In this document: piece by piece, positions 37-30,890 of the stretch | How positions within the stretch are numbered: position 1 is the stretch's first letter | How the letters are laid out: each line of letters begins with the position of its first letter | IMG/VR virus record: IMGVR_UViG_3300006875_000087 | Location: 1 to 31,282 of that record | Strand: one strand, 5' to 3' | Length of the DNA: 31,282 nucleotides | From: a virus | The notes under the pieces: generated by a model | Seen by the model: only the letters and a program-made list of their open reading frames with translations | The model's database searches: none | What the model was told of the DNA's origin: nothing | Program-made: the position numbers and the translations under genes

Positions 37-3000
37 TTACTTATTTGCCTTTAATGACTCGATCTCGGCCTTGAGATCCTTGATGGCCTCGATCAGGAGA
101 GGAACCAGGAGCTCGTAACGAACTGCCTTGAATCCATCCTGACGTTCACCCACAACGTTCGGGAAGACCTTCTCGACCTCCTGGGCGATGACGCCGGAGT
201 TGTCGTTACGAACGAAGTAACCATCCACATCACCGTGAGACTTCTTGTAGGTATCATTCCAGTCATAGACCACACCATTGATCTGAGTAACCTTGTCCAG
301 TGCATTCTCAATCTTGCGGACGTTCGTCTTGAGGCGTTCGTCTGAGGTGTAATATGCAGTGATGTTATCGATCGCACGGATCTCGCCAGACACTCCAGAT
401 GCAGCGGTACCAACTCCAATAGAACCGAACTGGACATTCGATGTTGTTGCTACAGCCTGAGGAATGGACACTGAAATTTCGCCGGCATTTACATAAGCTA
501 CAGTAACTCCTGTACCATTAGAAATCTTTAGCGATGATGTTCCAGAGCTTGAATCCAGCTTATAAACTGTAGAGTTAAGATAGGCGCCTCCGGTGACAGT
601 TTGAGCAGAAAGAGCCAGGCTGCTTACAATCGAACTTTCAGGCTTAGATGAAACATCACTCCACGGAACAGATGCCACAGTAGTGAACGCATTCTGTGCG
701 TTAGCCTTTAGATATCCGGCAGTGAATGTTGTCGCTCCAGTACCACCATTTGCGACTGCAACGGTACCGGTTACGTTTGCGGCAGTACCAGTCGTATTTT
801 GATTGAGCGTAGGGAAGTTTGTTAATGAAGCAGCTGAACCGATAAAGGATGTCGCTGTAAGTGATCCAGAGAAAACAGATGCTCCAGTATGAGCGCTGTA
901 AATCGCATAATTTGTAGTACCCAGCGTGCAGTTATCGATATAAAGACCGCGCGTTTCGGTGACTGCTGTAGTACCAGTACGTGTAACGGCGCCGATTCGA
1001 ATGGCGCTGTACGTCATCGCTGGCGTAGATTCACTCCAGAAGCTCGAGTCAATGATTGGAACAATTCCAATGCCTTCCATCACACCTCCGCCGATGCTGT
1101 TTGGTCGAAACGTTGGACGCAACCAAATCGCTCGTGTTGGCTGAGCGGCAGAAATTGAATCAAATCCTAGGTCAAGGTTTAGAGCAGCAGTCGAGCTCGA
1201 ATTAGAGCCGATGCCCATCTTCTGGCTGAATATCTTAGTTCCAGCAATAGTCTGATTGCCCGAGGTTTTGACGTAATTGCTATCACTTTCTGTTGATCCG
1301 TCACCCTTCAGAATATCGGTTGAGAATGCGCCAGACTTAACAAATGATCCAGCAGTAATGCTAGTCGTCGTTGTGTTTCCAACATTGCAGACAGTTTGCA
1401 GATTTGGATTAGATGTCAGATACGATGATGTATCTAATGACCAGGTATCAGTATTAGTCTTTCTAAGTAGTCCGCTTGTTCCGGTCAATCCAGCGATTGC
1501 TGCAAGATCAGCATCAAATGGCTGGTAATTCAGCGATGGAATTCTAGCAGCATCAAACGTTCCCGTGGTAATTTTAGCAGCATCTAGTGATGGAATTCTA
1601 GCAGCATCAAACGTTCCCGTGGTAATTTTAGCAGCATCTAGTGATGGAATATCTGCTGCAACAAGAGCTCTGAATGTCGGAACCGCCGCTACACCACTCG
1701 GAGGACCTGCCAGAACCGTATTTGCATTCTTTGTACCATATGGATTCTGAGTATCGCCGTAACTGGCAGAAAGACTTATATTCGGGGTTGTTCCTCCAGA
1801 GGAAGAAATTGGAGCTGTGGCTCCAACAGATGTGACGTATGTTCCAATAGGTTGATATGCTGTCGAAGCAGTATATGCCGCAGTACCCAGACCTAACATA
1901 ACCTGAACTTGTGCGACAGTTAATTCTGCTGGAGCCGCTGAGGTGCTAGCACTATTATTTCCCAGAATTCGTTGTGCTGCAATATCTGCAATCTTTCCAA
2001 GGGTAACATTAGAATTAGCAATCTTCGCGGTTGTGATAGCATTATTGGCGATTGTCGTTGAAATGCTTGTTGCACCGGTTCCTGTTACATCACCTGTAAG
2101 GCTAATGCTTTGATTTCCGGTCAGATAAGACGCTGTATCTAATGACCAGGTATCGGCTGCGGTCTTTCTGAGTAATCCAGATGTTCCGGAGATCCCTGCG
2201 ATGGCGGCAAGATCGGCATCAAGGCGGGCAGAATTGATTGTACCGCTAGTAATCTGTTCACCGCTGATAGACTTATTAGTCAGAGTCTGTGATCCGGTAA
2301 GAGTAACAATGTCAGTCCCTGCGATTCCAAGAACAGCGGTTGATGTCAGAACGGCAGTATTATTGATCTTAAACTGCTTTCCAGTCGGAAGGTTCCAATG
2401 TTCGCTGGATGTCCAGTTCGTGTTGGCAGAATCCCAGGTAATCGTCTTGTCAGTGGCGCCTTTCAGAGTAATACCACCGCCGTTTGCAGTTGAGTCGCTG
2501 GCGGCCTCGGCACCAAATGTAACTCCACCAGATCCTAGGTGTGGACTCGTGACAGTAAATTGAGTTAAATTGTTAATTGCAGCAACAGCAATTGAAGCAG
2601 AACCAAATATACCCCCGCTTGAGTTTATATCCGTTAAACGTTGTCCAGGAATTAATCCGGTAGTATTTCCGCTCGTAAGATTTACGACGATCGACCCGCT
2701 CGTGAGAGTCGCAGCCATTCCTGTTTTTACAGGTACACTTCCAAGCTCAATGTTCTTATCGTCAACCGTCACCGTAGAACTATTGATCGTAGTCGTTGTG
2801 CCATTTACAATTAAATCCCCCGAAAGTGTCAGGGTCGCTGCACTGATGGCGCCACTCGTCGTAAGAGAACCGACCGTAATACCGTTTGATGTTGTAGAGC
2901 CTCTGGTAGTTACAGAATCAAGTGTCTCTGTGTTGATAGGAGCGAAACGAGTATCAAGATTGACACTCGTCAATCCTGTGACGTGGCCATTATTCAGTGT

Positions 3001-5964
3001 GACGTCTTGGATAACAGTTCCACCGCTATTATCAACCGATGCCTGACTTCCCATGGTGGCGTGGACGATATTAACCGTCTTATTTCCACCTGCCGTGGAA
3101 GAAGTAAGTGATATCGTACCATCCGACGCAAAGTTCAGAATATCGTTGTTTGCATTGGCAGTTAACGCCGTAGTGCCGGCAATTGCGATATTCTTGAAAA
3201 TGCTCTGCGATGATCCTTTATCACTATTTGTCAGGGTGACAGTTTCACCCAGATTTACTACAGCACCTCCACTTAATCCAGATCCTCCGGCCGTTGTAAC
3301 AGTGATGCTGCTGTTTGCAAGTTTTGCATTTGTTACATTTCCGTTTAGAATCTTTGCGGTGGTTACTGCGTCTGCTGCAATTTTGCTAGCAATCACAGCG
3401 TTATCAATGATAGTGGATGCCAGAGCAATCGTATATGTTCCGGCACCCAATTCTGTTAGAGTTGTGGATGCTGATCCAGAAAGCTCACCAGATAGGGTAA
3501 CACCAACAACCGGTGAAGGCTTGTTGATCAGTGTATTAAAATTAGCAGAAATCGTAGCAGCACCAGTAATCGTCGTTGCGCCACGAACTGTTAGATCTCC
3601 CTTAATTTCCACCGAGCCATCAGCACCAACTGTAAAACGATTTGCTCCTTGTTGCGCCGTGGGAAAACCATTTGTATACGTTGAATTATTATTGACTACG
3701 GCAAGTACAACGGTGTTGTTTGCAAGAGTTGTTAAAACCTGTGTCTTTCCAGAAACATCCAACGTTCCAGATACCGTTTCATTTCCAGTGACCGCAACGG
3801 TTCCTCCTGTAGAAGTAAGCGTAAGATTAGTCGAAGCGGTAGACGTTGAAATCGTATTCGCTGCACTCCCAAGAACAACATTATTTGCTGTAACAGAGGC
3901 AAACGTTGGTGTTGCCCCGGTATGAATGTTCTGAGGCAGAGAAAGGGCAACAGCTCCGGTCGTCGTTGTGGCCGTTATCTGATTTGCGGTGCCGGTAACC
4001 GATACGATCTTTGCATCGGTATATGCGGTACCGATCGATGTTCCTTGCCAGATTCCGGTTCCAATAGTACCAACAGATGTCAGGGAGGATGTAACAACCG
4101 TGCTATTCAGCGTAGTTCCAGTAAGCGTTCCGGCCGCAGCAGTGACTGTGATATTTGCGGTACCGTCAAAGCTGACTCCATTGATTGTTCTGGCAGTTGC
4201 CAACTTTGTTGCCGTATCGGCATTTCCAGTCAGATTACCAGTGACGTTACCGGTCAGAGGTCCGCTAAATGCCGAGGATGTGACAGAAGCCAGACCAGTG
4301 AATGTCGTAACCGTAGATCCGAGAGATACCGCAGTAGATCCGATCGTAACGGAACTATTGACCAGTTTTCCATTTGCAATGCTTCCGGCAAGCATGGTGT
4401 TAGTTACGGTACCGGTATCTCCAGTTGTCACGATTGTACCGGTTTGTGCCGGCATCGTCAAAGTCACCAGAGCATTTGTTGATGCTGGAGTAAGCTTAAT
4501 TACGTTGGTTCCTGCTGTTGGAAAATCAATCGAAGAAATTCCGGTGAGTGCAAGATTTCCAGACGTACGGTTCAGCGCGACCGATGTTGTACCGATAGAG
4601 AAAGTATCAGCACGACGAGCAATAGTTGCATCTGCAGCTATTGTGACTGCTGCAGATCCATTGAAGCTCGTACCACTAAGTCCATCACCGATTGTCAGCG
4701 CATTTGTTGTCGTCGAAGTGATAGTTCCAGATGATCCGAGGGCAACAGTAACACCATTGAATGTGACAGAACTATTGACAAGCTTTCCATTTGCAATGCT
4801 TCCGGCAAGCATCGTGTTCGTAACGGTTCCAGTATCTCCTGTGGTAACAACTGTTCCGCTTGTTGCAGGGAGAGTGATTGTAGTTGTTCCAGCAATCGCC
4901 GTAGGCTGGAGTAGAACTGTTCCAGATGTTGAACCAGGAAGAGTGACCGATGAAATACCAGCCAAGGCAAGATTACCAGATCCACGGCTCAGAGTTATTG
5001 ATGTGGTACCAATGAATGTCGTATCTGAGGTGAGAGCAATCGTTCCAGAATTATCCGGGATCGTCAGTGTGCGAGTAGTGTTCGCGGTAATACCTGATAA
5101 CTGAAATTGCAGCCTCTTTGTCGGTGTTACATCATCGATAAAGAATGTGGTAGAATCCTGCAGGCTCTTATTCGTCAGAGTTTGAGTTGCGGCAAGGGCT
5201 GCGAAATCGTCATCGGTCAGAGCTGTGTTAAACTGAGCCAGAGTACCGCTGATCGTGTTTGAACCCAGAGCGATCGTCTTGTTCGTCAGGGTCTGAGCTG
5301 TATTCAGGGCTGCGAAATCGTCATCGGTCAGAGCTGTGTTAAACTGAGCCAGAGTACCGGTCAGCGTATTGTTCGCCAGGTTGATGGTCTTCGTGGTGAG
5401 CGTTTCGCTTCCAGCCAAAGTAGCAACCGTTCCGCTTGCAGGAAGAGTCAGTGATGATCCCCCGGCCGCTGTCGTCAAGGCCAGATTTCCCGTAGAGATC
5501 GTCAGAGTACGACTACCATTGTTGATGCCTGTTCCACCGTATGTCGGAGAAACGATTGTTCCCTGCCATACACCCGTACCGATTGTACCGACCGTGGTCA
5601 GAGAGGAGGTGACCACGCCGGATCCTAATGTTGTGGCGTTCAGGACCGATGTTCCGTCGATCGTATATGCCTGACCAGAAGAAAGGTTGAGATTCGACGA
5701 AAAGGTCTTCGTCCCAGAGATCGTGACACTTGATCCTGTCTTCAGTTCGTTCAGAGCGGCAACGATGTTTGATGCAGCAAAAGTGGAAAGGCTACCGATG
5801 ACTCCAATGTCACTCTGAAGCTCGTTGATGGCACCCACCAACGATGTGTTCGCGGTGATATTGGCCGAAAGCGTCGCTCTGTCGCCTAGGTCAGACGAAA
5901 CAGTGTTCGTCTTTGTGCGCCATTGCTCAAATGTATCGGAACGTAGGACTTCAGTGAGGGCCAT
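37..5964 (-). CDS. Long tail fiber protein with C-terminal self-cleaving chaperone domain
   Basis: A 1975-residue virion protein, probably the main host-binding tail fiber or its shaft. The N-terminus (MALTEVLRSDTFEQWRTKTN) is of the type that starts many exo-T-even tail fibers. The body is Thr/Ser/Gly/Ala-rich with many short beta repeats, including LAQFNTALTDDDFAAL units, a tandem 18-residue unit (SLDAAKITTGTFDAARIP twice) and two copies of a TGDTGTVTNTMLAGSIANGK block, as expected for a trimeric beta-structured fiber. A less repetitive island near residues 1560-1680 may be a folded knob. The last about 102 residues, from S1874 (SDERLK), form a peptidase S74 / endosialidase intramolecular chaperone domain. 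In this family the serine is the self-cleavage site that frees the trimerising chaperone, and the end is a short helical coiled coil. The start at 5964 has no Shine-Dalgarno sequence and lies 12 bases after the small upstream gene. Confidence 0.9.
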   Translation of the reverse strand: MALTEVLRSDTFEQWRTKTNTVSSDLGDRATLSANITANTSLVGAINELQSDIGVIGSLSTFAASNIVAALNELKTGSSVTISGTKTFSSNLNLSSGQAYTIDGTSVLNATTLGSGVVTSSLTTVGTIGTGVWQGTIVSPTYGGTGINNGSRTLTISTGNLALTTAAGGSSLTLPASGTVATLAGSETLTTKTINLANNTLTGTLAQFNTALTDDDFAALNTAQTLTNKTIALGSNTISGTLAQFNTALTDDDFAALAATQTLTNKSLQDSTTFFIDDVTPTKRLQFQLSGITANTTRTLTIPDNSGTIALTSDTTFIGTTSITLSRGSGNLALAGISSVTLPGSTSGTVLLQPTAIAGTTTITLPATSGTVVTTGDTGTVTNTMLAGSIANGKLVNSSVTFNGVTVALGSSGTITSTTTNALTIGDGLSGTSFNGSAAVTIAADATIARRADTFSIGTTSVALNRTSGNLALTGISSIDFPTAGTNVIKLTPASTNALVTLTMPAQTGTIVTTGDTGTVTNTMLAGSIANGKLVNSSVTIGSTAVSLGSTVTTFTGLASVTSSAFSGPLTGNVTGNLTGNADTATKLATARTINGVSFDGTANITVTAAAGTLTGTTLNSTVVTSSLTSVGTIGTGIWQGTSIGTAYTDAKIVSVTGTANQITATTTTGAVALSLPQNIHTGATPTFASVTANNVVLGSAANTISTSTASTNLTLTSTGGTVAVTGNETVSGTLDVSGKTQVLTTLANNTVVLAVVNNNSTYTNGFPTAQQGANRFTVGADGSVEIKGDLTVRGATTITGAATISANFNTLINKPSPVVGVTLSGELSGSASTTLTELGAGTYTIALASTIIDNAVIASKIAADAVTTAKILNGNVTNAKLANSSITVTTAGGSGLSGGAVVNLGETVTLTNSDKGSSQSIFKNIAIAGTTALTANANNDILNFASDGTISLTSSTAGGNKTVNIVHATMGSQASVDNSGGTVIQDVTLNNGHVTGLTSVNLDTRFAPINTETLDSVTTRGSTTSNGITVGSLTTSGAISAATLTLSGDLIVNGTTTTINSSTVTVDDKNIELGSVPVKTGMAATLTSGSIVVNLTSGNTTGLIPGQRLTDINSSGGIFGSASIAVAAINNLTQFTVTSPHLGSGGVTFGAEAASDSTANGGGITLKGATDKTITWDSANTNWTSSEHWNLPTGKQFKINNTAVLTSTAVLGIAGTDIVTLTGSQTLTNKSISGEQITSGTINSARLDADLAAIAGISGTSGLLRKTAADTWSLDTASYLTGNQSISLTGDVTGTGATSISTTIANNAITTAKIANSNVTLGKIADIAAQRILGNNSASTSAAPAELTVAQVQVMLGLGTAAYTASTAYQPIGTYVTSVGATAPISSSGGTTPNISLSASYGDTQNPYGTKNANTVLAGPPSGVAAVPTFRALVAADIPSLDAAKITTGTFDAARIPSLDAAKITTGTFDAARIPSLNYQPFDADLAAIAGLTGTSGLLRKTNTDTWSLDTSSYLTSNPNLQTVCNVGNTTTTSITAGSFVKSGAFSTDILKGDGSTESDSNYVKTSGNQTIAGTKIFSQKMGIGSNSSSTAALNLDLGFDSISAAQPTRAIWLRPTFRPNSIGGGVMEGIGIVPIIDSSFWSESTPAMTYSAIRIGAVTRTGTTAVTETRGLYIDNCTLGTTNYAIYSAHTGASVFSGSLTATSFIGSAASLTNFPTLNQNTTGTAANVTGTVAVANGGTGATTFTAGYLKANAQNAFTTVASVPWSDVSSKPESSIVSSLALSAQTVTGGAYLNSTVYKLDSSSGTSSLKISNGTGVTVAYVNAGEISVSIPQAVATTSNVQFGSIGVGTAASGVSGEIRAIDNITAYYTSDERLKTNVRKIENALDKVTQINGVVYDWNDTYKKSHGDVDGYFVRNDNSGVIAQEVEKVFPNVVGERQDGFKAVRYELLVPLLIEAIKDLKAEIESLKANK
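1535..1642. repeat. Perfect 54-bp tandem duplication inside the fiber gene
   Basis: Bases 1535-1588 and 1589-1642 are identical head-to-tail copies, followed by the first 8 bases of a third. The unit is 18 codons, so copy changes keep the frame. It encodes SLDAAKITTGTFDAARIP twice. Perfect DNA identity suggests a recent duplication or ongoing homogenisation. Confidence 0.95.
5195..5359. repeat. Two identical 54-bp direct repeats, 111 bp apart, in the fiber gene
   Basis: Bases 5195-5248 and 5306-5359 are identical. They fall in the N-terminal third of the fiber and encode the NTALTDDDFAAL repeat module. The 111-bp offset is 37 codons, so unequal recombination would remove or add a whole module in frame. 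Confidence 0.95.
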
Positions 5965-7798: not shown

Positions 7799-10700
7799 TT
7801 ATTGTGTATAACGTTCGGCTTCAGGTAGAGTTGAAATATCCAGAGGAGCCGATGCTACGGTAAACGAAATCGTATTCGAATAATACGTTACGCCGCTCCA
7901 AACTGCTCTTGCACGTACCTGATATGTACCAGGCAGAGCCGGAGAAATTCTAAACACCGCATTACCAGATATTCCGGAAGTTGTTCCGCTCTGATATGCC
8001 AGAGGCACCCAATATCCGAAGTTAGGATCCGATGCATTGGATCTTTCTTCCATCACGAGGGATGTGAGAGATCCATATCCGGTCGCAGATGTGACAGCGG
8101 TAAAGTTGAACGGAATTCCGTTATACTTCGGAGTGAGCCCTTGGACTGCGATACCAACAAACGGAGGCACGGAAGGAGCCGGACCAGGCTTTGGCGTTGG
8201 AATCACTACCGGTGGCTGAGGAGCAGGTGTAGGAGCCGGCACAAAGATTCCAGTTGCACGGTAAATGCCTTCGGCATATGTAAAGGCTGAATCCGAGTTA
8301 TTCAGGGAATTATCGATGATTCTGAATGTTCTTTCGCCGGTGCGGAATTTGATAGCATCATTATGAGGAATGATGAATGATCCGATCACCTGTCCAGAAG
8401 AGTCCGTCGTCAGGGTTGTGGCGCCAGATGGATGCGCGGTCAGTCCAGCATAATTTTTATCGTCCGGATTCGTGGTGTAGTTGGTCATCGCAACCTCTGT
8501 ACGAACATAGTTCGTCATATCTACGCCATCGAAAAATGCGTAAACTCTCGAGAGAGGTTTTAGACCAGTAGCTCTAAAATATATCTTTCTGGAACGAATG
8601 TATGGAACAACGGTATTATTGACGACCGTATCAGATACCTGAGAAGTCTGTGTGTTATTGTAGACACCACTCGATGGCTTCGTGTATTGTCCAACAACAT
8701 CACCATTCGAGGCAATGATCGATCCTCCGCGAGCGGTTAATGTTCCCTCGGATAGTTGATTGCGGAGTTCTTCTTCCTCCTCAGGGGAAACACCGAACCA
8801 ATTGACCTGCCAATCGTTAAACAATCCACCATTTGCAGTATCGGCATCGGCTTCATTGAACCAACTATAGCTGTTAGAAGCATTTGCAGCCAGCTGAGGC
8901 TTTGTGGTGACTTCTTTCCATTCATCGGATGGAGGAGATAGCTCTAACCTTCCTTGCCATCCATATACCGCGTGTGGGTTAACGTATTCGGAGTATGACG
9001 AATACGGTTGTTCGATCAATGGTACTTCTGTATAGTTAAGAGTGACTAAAGATCCGGTCTGCTTGATATTAGCCGATCCTGCGATATTAGGAACAAGGTT
9101 GACGTACTTTTGAGTAAATTCTGGCAGAAGGATTCCCTTCTCGGCCTCGATCGAGCAGTGATAGTCTGGATGATTGAGGGCACCGATTCCATGGTCCACA
9201 AACGAATCAACGATGAACCCGTTCTTGTATCTCTGGTTACCTGTACCATCCAGAATCTGGGTATTCGCTGCGGACTTTTCGAGCAGCGACAGCGAGGTGT
9301 AGTACTCAACATTCGAGAGTCTCTTCTCCAGACGACCGATATCACGCATCGTATAGCGCTTGTTGTCGATCATCTTTGCCGAGAGGTCGATCGTGCTGAA
9401 TGTATAGGCATTCAGGTTAATCGAGTATAGTACCATCGAATCTTCCGGATCTTCCGGCGCCTTTGGAATCACGTTCGAGATACCCTTGATTGAGGCAAAC
9501 TCTCCATTCTTATTGACGAAGATCTTGTCGATGCGCGGCAGATAGAATTGAATATCTGTCAGAATCGTAGAATTTGGAACAATGCAGTTCGAGGTCGAAG
9601 CACCAGCGGCCGTGAATCCAGAACCGTCGTTACTCTTGGTCGGGCGGAAGTCGACCGCATCGCGGAGAGCGATCGCTCCCTTGATGGAATTGAATGTAGG
9701 AATATCTCCGTAGTCAACGCCAGAGTAGGAATTGACGCCGAAGTAGTCACCAGGATTGTGAGTGAAATAATCAAAGATTACTAGAATACGACCTGTAGGA
9801 GCACTTGCTCCTGGCTTTAACTGCATGCGGGCCACATCGTAGAAGTTTTCTCGTTGACCGTCATCCAGTGTATAACGACTGGTGATATTCGTGTCGTTGG
9901 TCGTGGCGTCCGTCGAAGCATTGGCAGACATATACACCGCTTTGATTCTCAGGACGTCGGTCTGAGCTAGAGAATCATAACCACCGGGTGTGGTGTTTGG
10001 TGATGAGAATGCCTTCTGACCATTACCGTAGGCGCCGGAGGTCCAAGTCGTAACACCAGATACGAAAGTCTTTGATTTTTCGATCAGGTTTCGACGTGTC
10101 GATGCAATGACGTAGAAGTACAGATTTGCATTTCCACCGCCGAGCGAGAGGGTGACAGATGTTCCACCACTGTTCAGAACAGGAGTTACTGCCTGAGTGA
10201 CCTGAGTTCCGTCACTCGCCTTAACGACCACATAATCCGTAGAGGTAACCGAGTAGAAATTCTCGGAACTTGCTGTAAGCGTCAGTTGACCACTTCCGTT
10301 TGCCTGGACGTTATCAAACTTGCGCTTGACGTAGTAGAAGAAGTCGCACGTCACATCATCAGAAGAGCGCAGAGACTGTACAGCACTGACAGGAAGCTTG
10401 TACAGCAACGAACTATTTGATGGATCATATAGAACTGCATACGTGATATTCGAATCGATATCATTGACCGTTGCAGTGAAGTCGTATCCTGGGACAGATG
10501 TATCTTGAAGTGTACTGACGTTAGAGAATGACTGTCCAGAATTCATTACGATATCGAACAGGTATAGCTTATAGAAAGCTGCTGATCCAATTGTGCCGGA
10601 AACATATTCCATGGCACGAGCGCGGGCGGTACCAATCGTGGTACCTCCAGAATTCTTGAGGTTTATCGGACTAAAAGTAGCAGTATCTGGAAGTCCTACA

Positions 10701-11932
10701 ACCGTATCGATATAGACATATCCTCCGAGCGGAGTAAAGATCGATGCACCATTGATGAATGCCTCATCTCGAGCTTTTTCCACAGTGACATATGTAGTAT
10801 CGAGAGTCTCGATGCGATACCCATTAACATATGCAACCGAGGGTTCAAGTCCTACTGCCAATCTGGCTTTTCCATAATCCAGAGCTTGTTGGCTCGTGAA
10901 TCCTGGATTTGCTGACTGAATTTGTGCCTGCGTGAACAATCCTCCGTTCGTGCCGCTGTTGTAATACTCGCGAACGTTGATCTGGAACGGACGAACTGTG
11001 TAATTGCCAGACTCTTCATAGGTACGAGTGGCCAGAGTGCGTGCAAGTTCTGAATACTCTGTACGGGCACGTCCTGTTACTTGACCACCATTGATCAGCA
11101 GTACCTGAATGATATTGTCCTCTGTTCTGTTCGAGAGGAGATATGGCTCTACGACCAGATCGAGAGCAACCTGATAGCGATGTGCTCCTGGAGCAGATTC
11201 ATTCGGCGTTCCTATTGAGTTGTCTACCAGAGATGCATCCTCTGTTGAGGTAACGATATTCTCTGAAATCTTATAGACTACACGCGCTGATGGGTTTGTG
11301 GTATATTTTGATACAATTACTGAATCAGCCGCTGCATAGACAAAATTTCCTTTTACAAAGTACACCCCTTCGTTGACAGAAACACGGGTTCCTCTTCCTA
11401 CAGGATTATTAACTTCTGATTTAACCTTAAACTTCTTCGTAGAACCATTGACAGTAAATGTCAAAATCTCTTCGGGAGAAAATCTATGGGATGTATTTGC
11501 AGTATCGGCACGCGTATAGCGAACAAAAATAGTGAGAGCATCTGATGTGGTAGATGCCGTTGCTTCAAGGACATCCGCAATGACTCCACTCGTGACACCA
11601 GTGACGGTGAGTCCTACAGCTGATGTGTAATAGGAAAGATTACTGCCGCCGTCACCTTCAGGATAGTACGTGCTACCGCCATCGGTGAATGTGCTTTCTA
11701 GTTTTACGAACTCGTAATTAGTGTCTAGAGATGCCTGACCGCCCAGAACCGGTGATCCTTCCTTGAATACATGGCTTCCAAAACGATCGATCTGTGCTTG
11801 TATTGCGGTCTGCAGTTGAGTCAGCTCGCGGGCCTGTACAGCATAGCCAGGGCGAAACAGAACACGCAGGTAGTTCTTTGACTGATCAAAGTCGTCGTAG
11901 TACGGAGGGATATTATAATTCTTGATTGCCAT
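7799..11932 (-). CDS. Large DUF4815-type baseplate structural protein
   Basis: A 1377-residue virion protein. The N-terminus (IPPYYDDFDQSKNYLRVLFR, then PGYAVQARELTQLQTAIQAQ and GSHVFKEGSPV) is the hallmark of the DUF4815 family, found in exo-T-even phages next to the baseplate wedge genes. The function is not established in detail. It is thought to belong to the peripheral baseplate, in the place of T4 gp9-gp12. A Pro-rich linker lies at about residues 1215-1245 (DNA about 8165-8260), followed by about 120 residues resembling an immunoglobulin or fibronectin-type beta domain (PGTYQVRARAVWSGVTYYSN). That tail looks like an added surface-binding module. The gene lies between gp8 (18 bases) and the 528-residue gene (8 bases). 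There is no SD before the ATG. Confidence 0.85.
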   Translation of the reverse strand: MAIKNYNIPPYYDDFDQSKNYLRVLFRPGYAVQARELTQLQTAIQAQIDRFGSHVFKEGSPVLGGQASLDTNYEFVKLESTFTDGGSTYYPEGDGGSNLSYYTSAVGLTVTGVTSGVIADVLEATASTTSDALTIFVRYTRADTANTSHRFSPEEILTFTVNGSTKKFKVKSEVNNPVGRGTRVSVNEGVYFVKGNFVYAAADSVIVSKYTTNPSARVVYKISENIVTSTEDASLVDNSIGTPNESAPGAHRYQVALDLVVEPYLLSNRTEDNIIQVLLINGGQVTGRARTEYSELARTLATRTYEESGNYTVRPFQINVREYYNSGTNGGLFTQAQIQSANPGFTSQQALDYGKARLAVGLEPSVAYVNGYRIETLDTTYVTVEKARDEAFINGASIFTPLGGYVYIDTVVGLPDTATFSPINLKNSGGTTIGTARARAMEYVSGTIGSAAFYKLYLFDIVMNSGQSFSNVSTLQDTSVPGYDFTATVNDIDSNITYAVLYDPSNSSLLYKLPVSAVQSLRSSDDVTCDFFYYVKRKFDNVQANGSGQLTLTASSENFYSVTSTDYVVVKASDGTQVTQAVTPVLNSGGTSVTLSLGGGNANLYFYVIASTRRNLIEKSKTFVSGVTTWTSGAYGNGQKAFSSPNTTPGGYDSLAQTDVLRIKAVYMSANASTDATTNDTNITSRYTLDDGQRENFYDVARMQLKPGASAPTGRILVIFDYFTHNPGDYFGVNSYSGVDYGDIPTFNSIKGAIALRDAVDFRPTKSNDGSGFTAAGASTSNCIVPNSTILTDIQFYLPRIDKIFVNKNGEFASIKGISNVIPKAPEDPEDSMVLYSINLNAYTFSTIDLSAKMIDNKRYTMRDIGRLEKRLSNVEYYTSLSLLEKSAANTQILDGTGNQRYKNGFIVDSFVDHGIGALNHPDYHCSIEAEKGILLPEFTQKYVNLVPNIAGSANIKQTGSLVTLNYTEVPLIEQPYSSYSEYVNPHAVYGWQGRLELSPPSDEWKEVTTKPQLAANASNSYSWFNEADADTANGGLFNDWQVNWFGVSPEEEEELRNQLSEGTLTARGGSIIASNGDVVGQYTKPSSGVYNNTQTSQVSDTVVNNTVVPYIRSRKIYFRATGLKPLSRVYAFFDGVDMTNYVRTEVAMTNYTTNPDDKNYAGLTAHPSGATTLTTDSSGQVIGSFIIPHNDAIKFRTGERTFRIIDNSLNNSDSAFTYAEGIYRATGIFVPAPTPAPQPPVVIPTPKPGPAPSVPPFVGIAVQGLTPKYNGIPFNFTAVTSATGYGSLTSLVMEERSNASDPNFGYWVPLAYQSGTTSGISGNAVFRISPALPGTYQVRARAVWSGVTYYSNTISFTVASAPLDISTLPEAERYTQ

Positions 11933-23822: not shown

Positions 23823-24485
23823 ATGGCCACACTCATCGGAAAAAGCATCAACGACATGAAAGGCACCATCACGAAGCATGGTGGCCTGGCCCATACAAAT
23901 CGGTTTGCGATCTACATGCAGCCACCAGCTGCAAGCCTTCTGAACATCGATATCCAGAACATACTGGTTTCACTGGTCTCTCGTAGCTTCAAGGCCAGCT
24001 CTCTCATCAATGATCCTCGAGATGTCGGAATCCTGTGCGAGTCGTGCTCGCTACCAGGCCGTCAGATCATGACGATGGATTATCAGAGCAACCGCCAGGC
24101 GATCAAGATCCCGTACGGCTTCATGAATGAGGACGTCACATTTACTTTCCTGCTGACCCATGACTACTACGTCAAGAAGATGTTCGACAAATGGTCGAAC
24201 CTGGTCATCGATGCCAATGCATATCGTGTTCGTTACCAGAACGAATACACCACCGACATCGTCATACAGCAGCTGAACAAGGAGAACCTTCCGGTCTACG
24301 GCATCAAGCTGAAGAATGCATATCCGATCACATTTGTTTCGATTCCGCTGGACAACACCGCAGAGAATTCAATTCAGAAGTTCTCGGTCACGATGACCTA
24401 TGAGAACTTCGAGGAAGAGGGTGCAGTCGCATCGGCGCTCTCCTCGGTCAAAACAGCAATTGGAGGAATCAAGAAGATCTTTTGA
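23823..24485 (+). CDS. Tail-tube-fold baseplate protein (gp54/gp19-like)
   Basis: A 220-residue protein with the layout of the tail-tube family: an N-terminal NRFAIYMQPP strand, a CESCSLPGRQIMTMDYQ segment, the conserved IPYGFMNEDVTFTFLLTHDY (compare the PVGFMNRKI motif of T4 gp19), a helix with MFDKWSNLVI, then LKNAYPITFVSIPLDNTAEN and QKFSVTMTYENFEEE. In T4 the tube initiator gp54, the cap gp48 and tube gp19 share this fold. Since gp48 is already present, gp54-like initiator is the best guess. Main tube protein is less likely because the gene lies amid low-copy hub genes and is longer than gp19 (163). Confidence 0.65.
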   Translation: MATLIGKSINDMKGTITKHGGLAHTNRFAIYMQPPAASLLNIDIQNILVSLVSRSFKASSLINDPRDVGILCESCSLPGRQIMTMDYQSNRQAIKIPYGFMNEDVTFTFLLTHDYYVKKMFDKWSNLVIDANAYRVRYQNEYTTDIVIQQLNKENLPVYGIKLKNAYPITFVSIPLDNTAENSIQKFSVTMTYENFEEEGAVASALSSVKTAIGGIKKIF

Positions 24486-24516: not shown

Positions 24517-25227
24517 ATGCCATTACCAGTCATTGAGACCCCAAAATATGAGCTGAGACTTCCGTCCAGCAACAAGCGAATTCAGTATCGCCCATACCTC
24601 GTCAAGGAAGAGAAGATCCTGATGGTCGCTCGTGAGTCGAACGATCAGAAACAGATCACCCAGGCCATCAAGGATACGATCGCGTCCTGCACATTTGGAA
24701 AGATCGATCCTGACAAACTGTCGGTGTTTGACCTGGAGTACATCTTCCTGAAACTACGCGCCAAGTCGGTAGGAGAGGTATCGAAGCTGACATTGAAGTG
24801 CGAGAAGTGCGAGAAGCCGAATCCACTTGAGATCAATCTGGAAGAAGTCTCCGTCAACACCGAGAACCTGCCAGATGCCAAGATCCAGCTGACAGATAAG
24901 ATCGGCGTCGTGATGAACTGGCCAAACGTCAACCTCATCTCCGAGCTCGCCGAACAGGACAAGTCAGACACCGGCAAGGTGGTCATGTCAGTCATCGTCG
25001 GTTGTATCGATTCGATCTTCGATGAGAAGGTCGTGCACCGTGCCTCTGATCATACCACCGAGGAGCTCCACCAGTTCATCGAATCCCTGAACCAGACTCA
25101 ATTCAATAAGATCAGGAAGTTCATTGAATCGACTCCGAAGCTAGAGCACAAGATCGAGTACAAGTGTTCTCACTGTGGTGCCGACAACAGCCTGACTCTC
25201 ACAGGACTCCAGAATTTTTTCTCGTAG
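24517..25227 (+). CDS. gp26-like baseplate hub / tail assembly chaperone with two CxxC pairs
   Basis: A 236-residue protein of the T4 baseplate-chaperone type (gp26/gp51 group), encoded just upstream of the tape measure. The N-terminal region (LPSSNKRIQYRPYLVKEEKI, then FGKIDPDKLSVFDLEYIFLK and LRAKSVGE) is typical of that family. C95-x-x-C98 and C217-x-x-C220 form two knuckles that could hold one zinc ion. The last codons before the stop contain T TTT TTC in the zero frame, and the -1 frame stays open for another 64 codons, so a longer 299-residue form is predicted. Position and expression pattern resemble gpG/gpGT of lambda and E/E' of P2. An AGGA lies seven bases before the ATG. Confidence 0.8.
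   Translation: MPLPVIETPKYELRLPSSNKRIQYRPYLVKEEKILMVARESNDQKQITQAIKDTIASCTFGKIDPDKLSVFDLEYIFLKLRAKSVGEVSKLTLKCEKCEKPNPLEINLEEVSVNTENLPDAKIQLTDKIGVVMNWPNVNLISELAEQDKSDTGKVVMSVIVGCIDSIFDEKVVHRASDHTTEELHQFIESLNQTQFNKIRKFIESTPKLEHKIEYKCSHCGADNSLTLTGLQNFFS
25215..25221 (+). other. Predicted -1 ribosomal frameshift site (T TTT TTC)
   Basis: A perfect X XXY YYZ heptamer in the reading phase of the gp26-like gene, six bases before its TAG begins to be read. Slippage joins it to the -1 frame, which continues to 25415. An SD-like AGGA at 25203-25206 lies 8 bases upstream, as in bacterial frameshift sites that use an internal SD. I do not see a strong downstream hairpin by eye. Confidence 0.7.
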
Positions 25228-25415
25228 GCCTCTCTCATGATAGTCTCGTCAACCACTACCAGACCAACTTTGCTCTAATGCAGCATCACAAGTACAGTCT
25301 GACCGAGCTGGATAACATGATTCCGTGGGAGAGGGAGATCTACGTTTCCTTGCTGGTTGAACACATCAAGGAAGAAAACGAACGCGCCAAGCGTAAGAAC
25401 AAACAGTTGACATGA
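25221..25415 (+). CDS. -1-frame extension of the gp26-like chaperone (or separate 45-residue protein)
   Basis: After frameshifting, 64 residues follow: LVGLSHDSLVNHYQTNFALM, then QHHKYSLTELDNMIPWEREI and a charged helical end. The first 19 of these residues lie upstream of the only ATG (25278), yet they look like protein in continuous register with what follows. The SLTELDNMIPWERE segment recalls the short C-terminal domains of frameshifted tail chaperones such as P2 gpE/E'. Independent translation from 25278 would give 45 residues, but no SD precedes it. The stop overlaps the tape measure start (ATGA), coupling the two. The earlier ATG at 25164 lies within the zero-frame CxxC region and is not a credible start. 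Confidence 0.7.
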   Translation, partial: LVGLSHDSLVNHYQTNFALMQHHKYSLTELDNMIPWEREIYVSLLVEHIKEENERAKRKNKQLT

Positions 25416-29443: not shown

Positions 29444-29670
29444 AGGAACCCTTTCAGTGTATTGGTTTTTGGAAGAAGATTGGAGGCCATTCCCTCGGCC
29501 TCGATCTTGGACTTAATGGAGGGTGCGATCAGCTTACCGATGTCGGCCGGATCGACTCCCATCTCGTTGCAGATATGGATGACCGCCTCGATGTAGGACA
29601 TCTTCTCGGATTTGACGAGAGATTCGACCTTCTCGGCCAGCGATGCTTTGGTCAGGATATTGTCTAACAT
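29440..29670 (-). CDS. gp33: Late promoter transcription accessory protein gp33
   Basis: A 76-residue short form of gp33 (112 in T4), as in cyanophage-type phages. Family knowledge: it binds the flap domain of host RNA polymerase, blocks normal promoter use, and joins with the gp55 sigma factor and the gp45 clamp to activate late promoters. The sequence has the expected core (MSYIEAVIHICNEMGVDPAD, then IGKLIAPSIKSKIEAEGM) and the closing NLLPKTNTL. The last residues (LKGFL) are hydrophobic, as expected if the C-terminus contacts the clamp. Its start overlaps the stop of the 406-residue gene (TGATG). The late boxes in this window are its expected targets. Confidence 0.82.
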   Translation of the reverse strand: MLDNILTKASLAEKVESLVKSEKMSYIEAVIHICNEMGVDPADIGKLIAPSIKSKIEAEGMASNLLPKTNTLKGFL

Positions 29671-30890
29671 CAGACGTCCCTCCTCTCGAAGACTCGTAGG
29701 AGCACGACCTCAGATCCGATACGAGCATTGGGTTTGCTTTCCTTGGTGGTCAGCTTCTCCCAGGCCTTGTTGATCTGCTTTGGTGTACTACCGAGTACGA
29801 TAGGCAGGAACTCGTCAGGTTTGCGCAGGCGGATGGACCGAGTGTTGACCTCATCCACGTTCTGCAGTGTGGTACCCTTGATGGAAAGACCCTTCTCGTT
29901 CTGGGCCACGTAATCGATCAGCATGCGGTACTTGACATTGAAGGCCAAGAGGCGGTAGGCACCGACGATCCGTTGAGGATCGATCGAGGCGATCTTATGC
30001 TCGGCGTTCTCCTTGCAGTACTTCAGATTAGCGATCTGCTTCTGAGCAGAGATCGGCTTCTTCTCACGAGGAGCACGAGTGGCCTTGGCTGCATGACGGA
30101 AGCGTTCCAGATCGGCCAGCATCTTCTCGAATGCCTGTACCTTCTTCTTGAGGGCAGGCTTCGGTTCGTTCTGGTAGACCTCCACGAGGTAAGGATCCGA
30201 ACCATCCAGAGCCTTCTGGATCTCGGTCATATGACGCGTCAGGAAGTTCTCCACGGTCGCACAGGCCATGGCAGAGAGGCCATGGTGTTGCATCCTGGCA
30301 TAGATATCGATCGGATCATAGTCCTTCTTGAGGACCCACAGGTCGATCATCTCATCGAGGTCACGGATGATCGTACGCGTGGCCTTGTTCCGCAGCAGCT
30401 CCATCGGAGAAACCGAGGGTGCTGCAGGGCTTCCAGAGTCACCTTTGGATGCCTCCCGGGCCATGCTACGGCCGATCGAGATTGTGTTGCGAATGCTGGT
30501 ATCCACGAACTCCCGATCGCTCGTATAATCGAGTTCTGGGTGCTTCTCCGGCATGCCACGGAGCATGCAGGTGCACAGCGTGCCGGTGGTCACACCAGGA
30601 AGGTAGTCAGCCGTACGGCGAACCGCGGAGACGTCCTCCTTGGAATAGCCGTTGGCCTCCATCCACTCGAGCACACGAGGCTTCATGGCCTTCGAGTCCT
30701 GGTAGTAGTTGTAGAAATTGAACGCGCGAGAGCGTTCCGCATGGAACTTTTCCTTGGGCCACGAGGACCAATTGTCCCAGACCGGTTCGAGACCGGTGTA
30801 ACGCTCATCAGTGGCATCAACACCACCGATGTGCTTGCGGGCCTTCTTGGTGCGCTTCTTGGCGTTCTTGAGTATGTCTTCGACAGCCAT
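29670..30890 (-). CDS. Conserved unknown 406-residue protein upstream of gp33
   Basis: Function not recognised. The first about 120 residues are basic then aromatic (KKRTKKARKHIGG, WSSWPKEKFHAERSRAFNFY, RTADYLPGVTTGTLCTCMLR). A flexible Ser/Gly/Pro stretch lies near residues 148-160. From about 170 to 300 it is helical, with a basic coiled region near 235-285 (KKKVQAFEKMLADLERFRHA). The end holds VKYRMLIDYVAQNEKGLSIK, GTTLQNVDE and RLRKPDEFLPIVLG, which I recall as recurring in hypothetical proteins of marine T4-like phages. The operon with gp33, gp59 and gp32 suggests a role in replication or transcription. It starts 4 bases after the SH3-like gene and has no SD, so it is probably coupled. 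Confidence 0.85.
   Translation of the reverse strand: MAVEDILKNAKKRTKKARKHIGGVDATDERYTGLEPVWDNWSSWPKEKFHAERSRAFNFYNYYQDSKAMKPRVLEWMEANGYSKEDVSAVRRTADYLPGVTTGTLCTCMLRGMPEKHPELDYTSDREFVDTSIRNTISIGRSMAREASKGDSGSPAAPSVSPMELLRNKATRTIIRDLDEMIDLWVLKKDYDPIDIYARMQHHGLSAMACATVENFLTRHMTEIQKALDGSDPYLVEVYQNEPKPALKKKVQAFEKMLADLERFRHAAKATRAPREKKPISAQKQIANLKYCKENAEHKIASIDPQRIVGAYRLLAFNVKYRMLIDYVAQNEKGLSIKGTTLQNVDEVNTRSIRLRKPDEFLPIVLGSTPKQINKAWEKLTTKESKPNARIGSEVVLLRVFERRDV

Follow-up and report, generated by a model that had tools for sequence, protein, structure and literature searches.

A probable programmed -1 frameshift in the tail assembly chaperone gene of a T4-like phage and its relatives

In phage lambda, the slippery site of the tail assembly chaperone gene is G_GGA_AAG. 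Among T4-like phages, Vladimirov et al. 2022 are said to have found that frameshifting is conserved in several groups and that T4 uses genes 26 and 51. In its passage on the subject, a 2016 review describes G-T frameshifting as widely conserved "except T4". The work of Vladimirov et al. 2022 is cited in part of PMC12846349 for poly-T -1 signals in the TAC-N genes of T4-like phages, and in a passage of the PRFect paper (PMC10885494) for T4-like phages with a short gene and a longer fusion gene. For the Pseudomonas phage Adele locus, the same part of PMC12846349 argues, from frames that stay open in 56 alleles, that a -1 site with a T-rich core is conserved ahead of the tape measure gene. In a passage of PMC3037559, gp51 of cyanophages looks truncated and gp51 of Aeh1 is called missing.

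We analyzed a viral DNA stretch of 31,282 bases, called here the window. The gp26-like gene of the window is preceded by tube-, gp2- and gp4-like genes, recognized by Pfam and phrog profile matches, and this short ORF and an extension overlapping it sit between the tube gene and a putative tape measure gene (Table 1). The 3' end of the gp26-like ORF, read directly, is GGA CTC CAG AAT TTT TTC TCG TAG. T TTT TTC ends one codon ahead of the TAG; the TAG is followed by GG, and no start codon is near. An earlier note on this DNA had described an in-phase heptamer at this place, an AGGA 8 bases upstream of it and a -1 frame open across it to position 25415. Direct reading agrees with all of this, down to the coordinates, and the two products of 236 and 299 residues that it had proposed are both right by computed translation. 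The note had also claimed CxxC knuckles. Both pairs (95/98 and 217/220) are kept in 27/27 aligned relatives and are lost in some distant isolates. The 646-residue ORF is likely the tape measure protein, judging from its position and from relatives, whose ORFs at this position match tape measure phrogs and align to it. Its own profile match is phrog_27688 only, a family of unknown function. Elsewhere in the window, a 406-residue ORF on the minus strand (29670-30890) matches phrog_11903 (unknown function, E 8.1e-66) and adjoins gp59- and gp32-like genes, and two very long ORFs of 1975 and 1377 residues lie on the minus strand at 37-5964 and 7799-11932.

Table 1. Features of the chaperone locus in the window (positions from the first base of the window)
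Feature	Position	Strand	Evidence
Tube-type gene upstream (context)	23823..24485	+	PF06841, E 5.2e-9
gp26-like gene, tail assembly chaperone short form (TAC-N), 236 aa	24517..25227	+	PF12322, E 2.1e-63; phrog_150, E 3.5e-66
First CxxC pair, gp26 residues 95-98	24799..24810	+	invariant in 27 aligned relatives
Second CxxC pair, gp26 residues 217-220	25165..25176	+	invariant in 27 aligned relatives
SD-like AGGA, candidate stimulator, 8 nt ahead of heptamer	25203..25206	+	read directly; in 70 loci, pairing stronger on average than in synonymous shuffles
Slippery heptamer T TTT TTC, phase right for a -1 shift	25215..25221	+	read directly; conserved in relatives
-1 extension, gp51-like tail (TAC-C), stop TGA at 25413-25415	25221..25415	+	phrog_634, E 5.2e-30 for 25215-25415
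Zero-frame stop TAG, terminates short form	25225..25227	+	read directly
First ATG of the -1 frame, rejected as a separate gp51 start	25278..25280	+	no SD; conserved codons upstream
Likely tape measure gene, 646 aa	25412..27352	+	position and relatives; ATG overlaps the -1 stop as ATGA

We consider it highly probable that a programmed -1 frameshift joins the gp26-like gene and the -1 frame as one tail assembly chaperone gene. From the anatomy, conservation, selection and homology described here, we infer the shift, its frequency and the roles of its products as follows. Most ribosomes would halt at the TAG and release the 236-residue short form. At T TTT TTC, a minority would move back by one base, probably aided by the SD-like AGGA upstream, and would make the 299-residue long form with the gp51-like tail at its end. 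If the two forms act like lambda gpG and gpGT, the tape measure protein would be coated by the short one, and the long one would bring in tube subunits.

The bare string TTTTTTC occurs 4 times in the window, against 4.7 expected. This is about the chance frequency, and so the case rests on phase and conservation. To assess conservation, we pooled 180 loci, made up of 81 viral contigs or copies, 77 further contigs and 22 isolates. They are a sample drawn from the nearest relatives (the viral scans gave up to 80 loci each); L001 is the window itself, and L002 and L003 are nearly identical to it. The T-even-type loci L086, L093, L106 and L108 were kept out by design, as was L107, where gp26 lies off the record end. 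It turned out that 179 of the 180 pooled loci (142 of 143 non-redundant ones), among them 21 of the 22 isolates, have both the heptamer and a gp51-like tail lying in the -1 frame; the sole exception is Pseudomonas phage Cygsa01. The last codon of the heptamer is TTC in 128 of these 179 loci, TTT in 49 and TTG in 2, and the gp26-like proteins compared are as low as 26% identical to that of the window. In the first 81 loci, the window's copy included, the T run stands directly before the gp26 stop in every case, and the tail always lies in the -1 frame, where similarity sets in at the very first residue. In 130 of 142 loci, no more than 3 nt separate the heptamer from the zero-frame stop. The heptamer is also found in 8/8 unpooled loci (L186 and L207-L213, of which L207 is Aeh1 again). 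The earlier note had named conservation of the heptamer in relatives as a check, and relatives with the two frames fused without a shift as evidence to the contrary. The first was borne out by the pool, and the second was seen nowhere in it: the tail is in the -1 frame in 81/81 first loci, in 77/77 viral contigs and in the 22 isolates.

The codon phase was examined in 71 non-redundant loci, of which L104 has no site, leaving 70. All 70 have T as the last base of the codon preceding TTT TTY/G, and TTT as the first Phe codon. Given the genes' own codon usage, the chance of the T-ending codon and of the TTT Phe codon is about log10 P -22 and -21, with relatedness ignored. The residue encoded before TTT TTY/G varies (Asn, Ser, Asp, Ala, Thr) under the fixed third-base T, and amino acid constraint is therefore no explanation. 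Two loci have unusual surroundings. In Rhizobium phage RL38J1 (L107:1-246), the record end, lying in a marked repeat, splits gp26 from the gp51-like ORF. In Synechococcus phage BUCT-ZZ01 (L101:3190-4106), a late sigma factor gene, not the tape measure gene, stands after gp26 and the -1 tail.

The AGGA ends 9 nt before the P-site codon, and a passage of PMC5009743 gives an SD spacing of 9-14 nt for -1 stimulation. Across 70 loci, the anti-SD pairing of the 15 nt upstream of the pre-heptamer codon has a mean of -5.41, versus -4.32 in synonymous shuffles (sd 0.15; 0/200 shuffles as low as observed). Among the 27 cases in which the codon preceding the conserved Gly leaves a choice, 24 have a purine as third base, versus 12.6 expected. 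The window's own SD-like pairing is weak (-3.7 versus a shuffled mean of -2.9). No RNA structure that could act as a stimulator was found downstream of the heptamer in the window (z 0.08).

The tail in the -1 frame matches a family labeled "baseplate hub assembly catalyst" (phrog_634). It could be thought that gp51 is a separate short gene read from an internal ATG such as that at 25278 and that the heptamer is incidental; several records, e.g. P-RSM6, Mosig and S-PM2, annotate a separate gp51 in this way. The ATG at 25278 indeed has no SD, as had been claimed (duplex energy +0.4), and an SD of <= -5 kcal/mol is almost absent from this position, being found at the first -1 ATG in 2% of 128 loci; among gp26 starts (129), 66% have one, and among ATGs in general 12%. 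As a further check, the earlier note had proposed conservation of the codons upstream of this ATG. In 50 loci, -1 frame codons 5-19, which run from the zero-frame stop to the first conserved ATG, have pN 0.168 and pS 0.893 (ratio 0.19) and contain no stops. The other two frames over the same codons have pN/pS of 1.15 and 1.70, with stops in 26/50 and 46/50 loci. Downstream, in -1 frame codons 22-49, pN/pS is 0.20 (48 loci). Thus, the codons that would go untranslated with an internal start are under as much constraint as those that would be translated, and the -1 product is protein-like on both sides of 25278, as the note had read it. The extension is under protein-level selection from the shift site on and has no start of its own. 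The heptamer codons are also fixed beyond amino acid need, and we regard a separate gp51 gene as very unlikely.

Annotation of these tails is uneven. The -1 gp51-like tails of Aeh1 (L088:3705-3884), Cronobacter phage S13 (L096:4711-4887) and Aeromonas phage 65 (L186, just after 3205) are not annotated as gp51. In 0/30 annotated regions is gp26 flagged as joined (two without annotation, one without gp26).

Slightly less credible still is a restart, in which ribosomes would terminate at the end of gp26 and initiate again in the -1 frame, using a start codon close by. An ATG, GTG or TTG does occur within the first 17 -1 codons in 34 of 70 non-redundant loci, and in several loci an ATG overlaps the gp26 stop. 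Moreover, SDs near gene ends may help restart, according to a passage of a review, and the upstream SD could have this alternative role. Against restart, the remaining 36/70 loci have no such codon there, and in Desulfovibrio phage 7757 the whole -1 stretch is devoid of them. The window likewise has no ATG, GTG or TTG in the -1 frame from the heptamer to 25278, and the heptamer is kept in phages both with and without a nearby start. In 20/142 loci, a -1 stop directly abuts the heptamer. In these loci, the -1 frame must therefore be entered at or after the heptamer, which counts in favor of the shift.

RNA polymerase slippage on the T run, giving mRNAs with an extra base, ranks lower again. The site is a homopolymer run, but in the window it has only 6 T and then C, while a passage of a review gives 9 A or T in bacteria; in addition, slippage of this kind would not need the strict codon phase of the run. 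Finally, a sequencing error or a decayed fusion gene, for which one could invoke the error-prone nature of homopolymers and the single-frame fusion in T-even gp51, is refuted by the pool, where the same arrangement is found in 179/180 loci, including 21/22 isolates, and its probability is negligible.

We also compared the predicted frameshift product with T-even gp51. In line with the statement that T4-type hub genes 26 and 51 are separate, gp51 of the T-even type is a separate gene in the records examined, divergent from gene 26 in three annotated ones. In hhalign, a profile of four T-even gp51 sequences aligns over 7-203 with the profile of gp26 (E 9.6e-15) and over 200-251 with that of the -1 tail (E 6.4e-11). 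The predicted frameshift product aligns in one piece with T-even gp51, e.g. with that of Escherichia phage ECD7 over residues 13-280 (E 3e-6), among the best 60 of 994 records matching the fusion query. Because T-even gp51 matches gp26 followed by the -1 tail over its full length, the T-evens appear to encode in a single frame the product that this phage would make by shifting. The phrog_150 profile continues past the end of gp26 and also matches the -1 tail; some members of this family thus seem to be annotated as fused. Aeromonas phage 65 was considered as a one-piece fusion and rejected: the alignment ran through the stop, and the DNA has the heptamer and a -1 tail. Within the 31 kb record, no separate full-length gp51 lies beside gene 26, and the tail directly follows gp26. 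In Vibrio phage phiTY18 (L108:2808-4153), gp26-like and full-length gp51-like ORFs stand in tandem on the same strand, versus the divergent T-even order; this is a possible intermediate.

The AlphaFold2 model of the 236-residue form has a pLDDT of 87.7. The top VIA-align rows of the model are 3fgx, 2ob9 and 3klu (Z 8.0, 7.6 and 6.8; next row 4.8), which cover approximately residues 1-94. The 2ob9 entry is the HK97 tail assembly chaperone; 3fgx and 3klu are presumably chaperone relatives. Foldseek alone gave no match to the model at E 0.001 or better, so the VIA-align match is no more than supportive of an N-terminal fold like that of the HK97 chaperone. The gp26 profile gave two weak, unrelated matches to PDB sequences. 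In LIMEstone1, gp26 is annotated as a confirmed structural protein, and T4 gp26 was placed in the hub by genetic work, as cited in a passage of PMC3004832. Both fit poorly with a chaperone absent from virions.

The heptamer is not universal. It is absent from 21 loci: Cygsa01, LIMEstone1, Vibrio K452 and 18 contigs retrieved with the protein of LIMEstone1, which itself recurs as one of them (L189). Among the unpooled loci L187-L206 it is absent in 20/20; most of these were viewed at the final codons, with a wider 90-nt check on six plus L104. LIMEstone1, K452, Cygsa01 and three of the contigs have TAATG, that is, a -1 frame ATG overlapping the gp26 stop; the other 15 contigs have ATT at the position of this ATG. 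The Ackermannviridae-type loci L187 and L189-L206 lack T TTT TTY ahead of their gp26 stop, which lies near position 3305 of each locus, and their junction is strongly conserved as ATTTTCAT(C/T)TAAT(G/T)TTTGAAA, with ATG in four and ATT in fifteen. Heptamer-less loci may restart at the stop or shift in some other way. A scan for relatives of Vibrio K452 gp26 found none. In addition, the T-evens have two separate genes.

We also considered whether frameshifting sets the dose of the tape measure protein, which seems rather unlikely. The tape measure ATG, overlapping the -1 stop, has no SD, so mainly shifted ribosomes would arrive and restart there. If so, ruler output would be tied to long-chaperone output. 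The spacing between the -1 stop and the next start was taken in 123 non-redundant loci: the two overlap in 45, are no more than 10 nt apart in 60 and lie further apart in 18. An SD of <= -5 kcal/mol precedes 24% of 136 next starts (paired p 0.01); the figures for ATGs overall and for the 129 gp26 starts are 12% and 66%. Against such coupling, the tube gene of the window likewise has no SD, and tight gene packing is common in phages.

Compared with known systems, the window resembles the T4-like phages of Vladimirov et al. 2022, as described in the passages citing them: the gene and the kind of site are the same. The window fits the poly-T sites cited for these phages, and the principle is thus already in print. 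The earlier note had proposed that G/GT logic extends to a T4-superfamily phage; the site, selection and homology support this, and its novelty falls to Vladimirov et al. 2022 as they are cited. What is added here is how far the site is conserved, the SD signal seen against synonymous shuffles and the heptamer-less exceptions, all of which may already be in that work. The Adele locus, likened by description only, differs in its GTTTTT motif and its families, Vandenendeviridae and Andersonviridae. In the T-evens, T4 genes 26 and 51 have homologous parts but are two separate genes with no frameshift site seen. As with lambda gpG/gpGT, in the arrangement as a passage of a review gives it, one gene before the tape measure gene would yield a short and a -1 extended chaperone; only the arrangement was compared. 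Unlike lambda, the gp26 family has an extra CxxC-bearing domain. The frameshift offers a reason for the truncated-looking gp51 of cyanophages and the "missing" gp51 of Aeh1 noted in part of PMC3037559. Three arrangements can now be compared: the frameshift, the separate genes and the heptamer-less type of the Ackermannviridae-type loci. Apparently, the sequences support a lambda-style trick in a wide part of the T4-like phages, namely cyanophages and relatives on Pelagibacter, Rhizobium, Vibrio, Aeromonas and others, which is absent in T4 itself.
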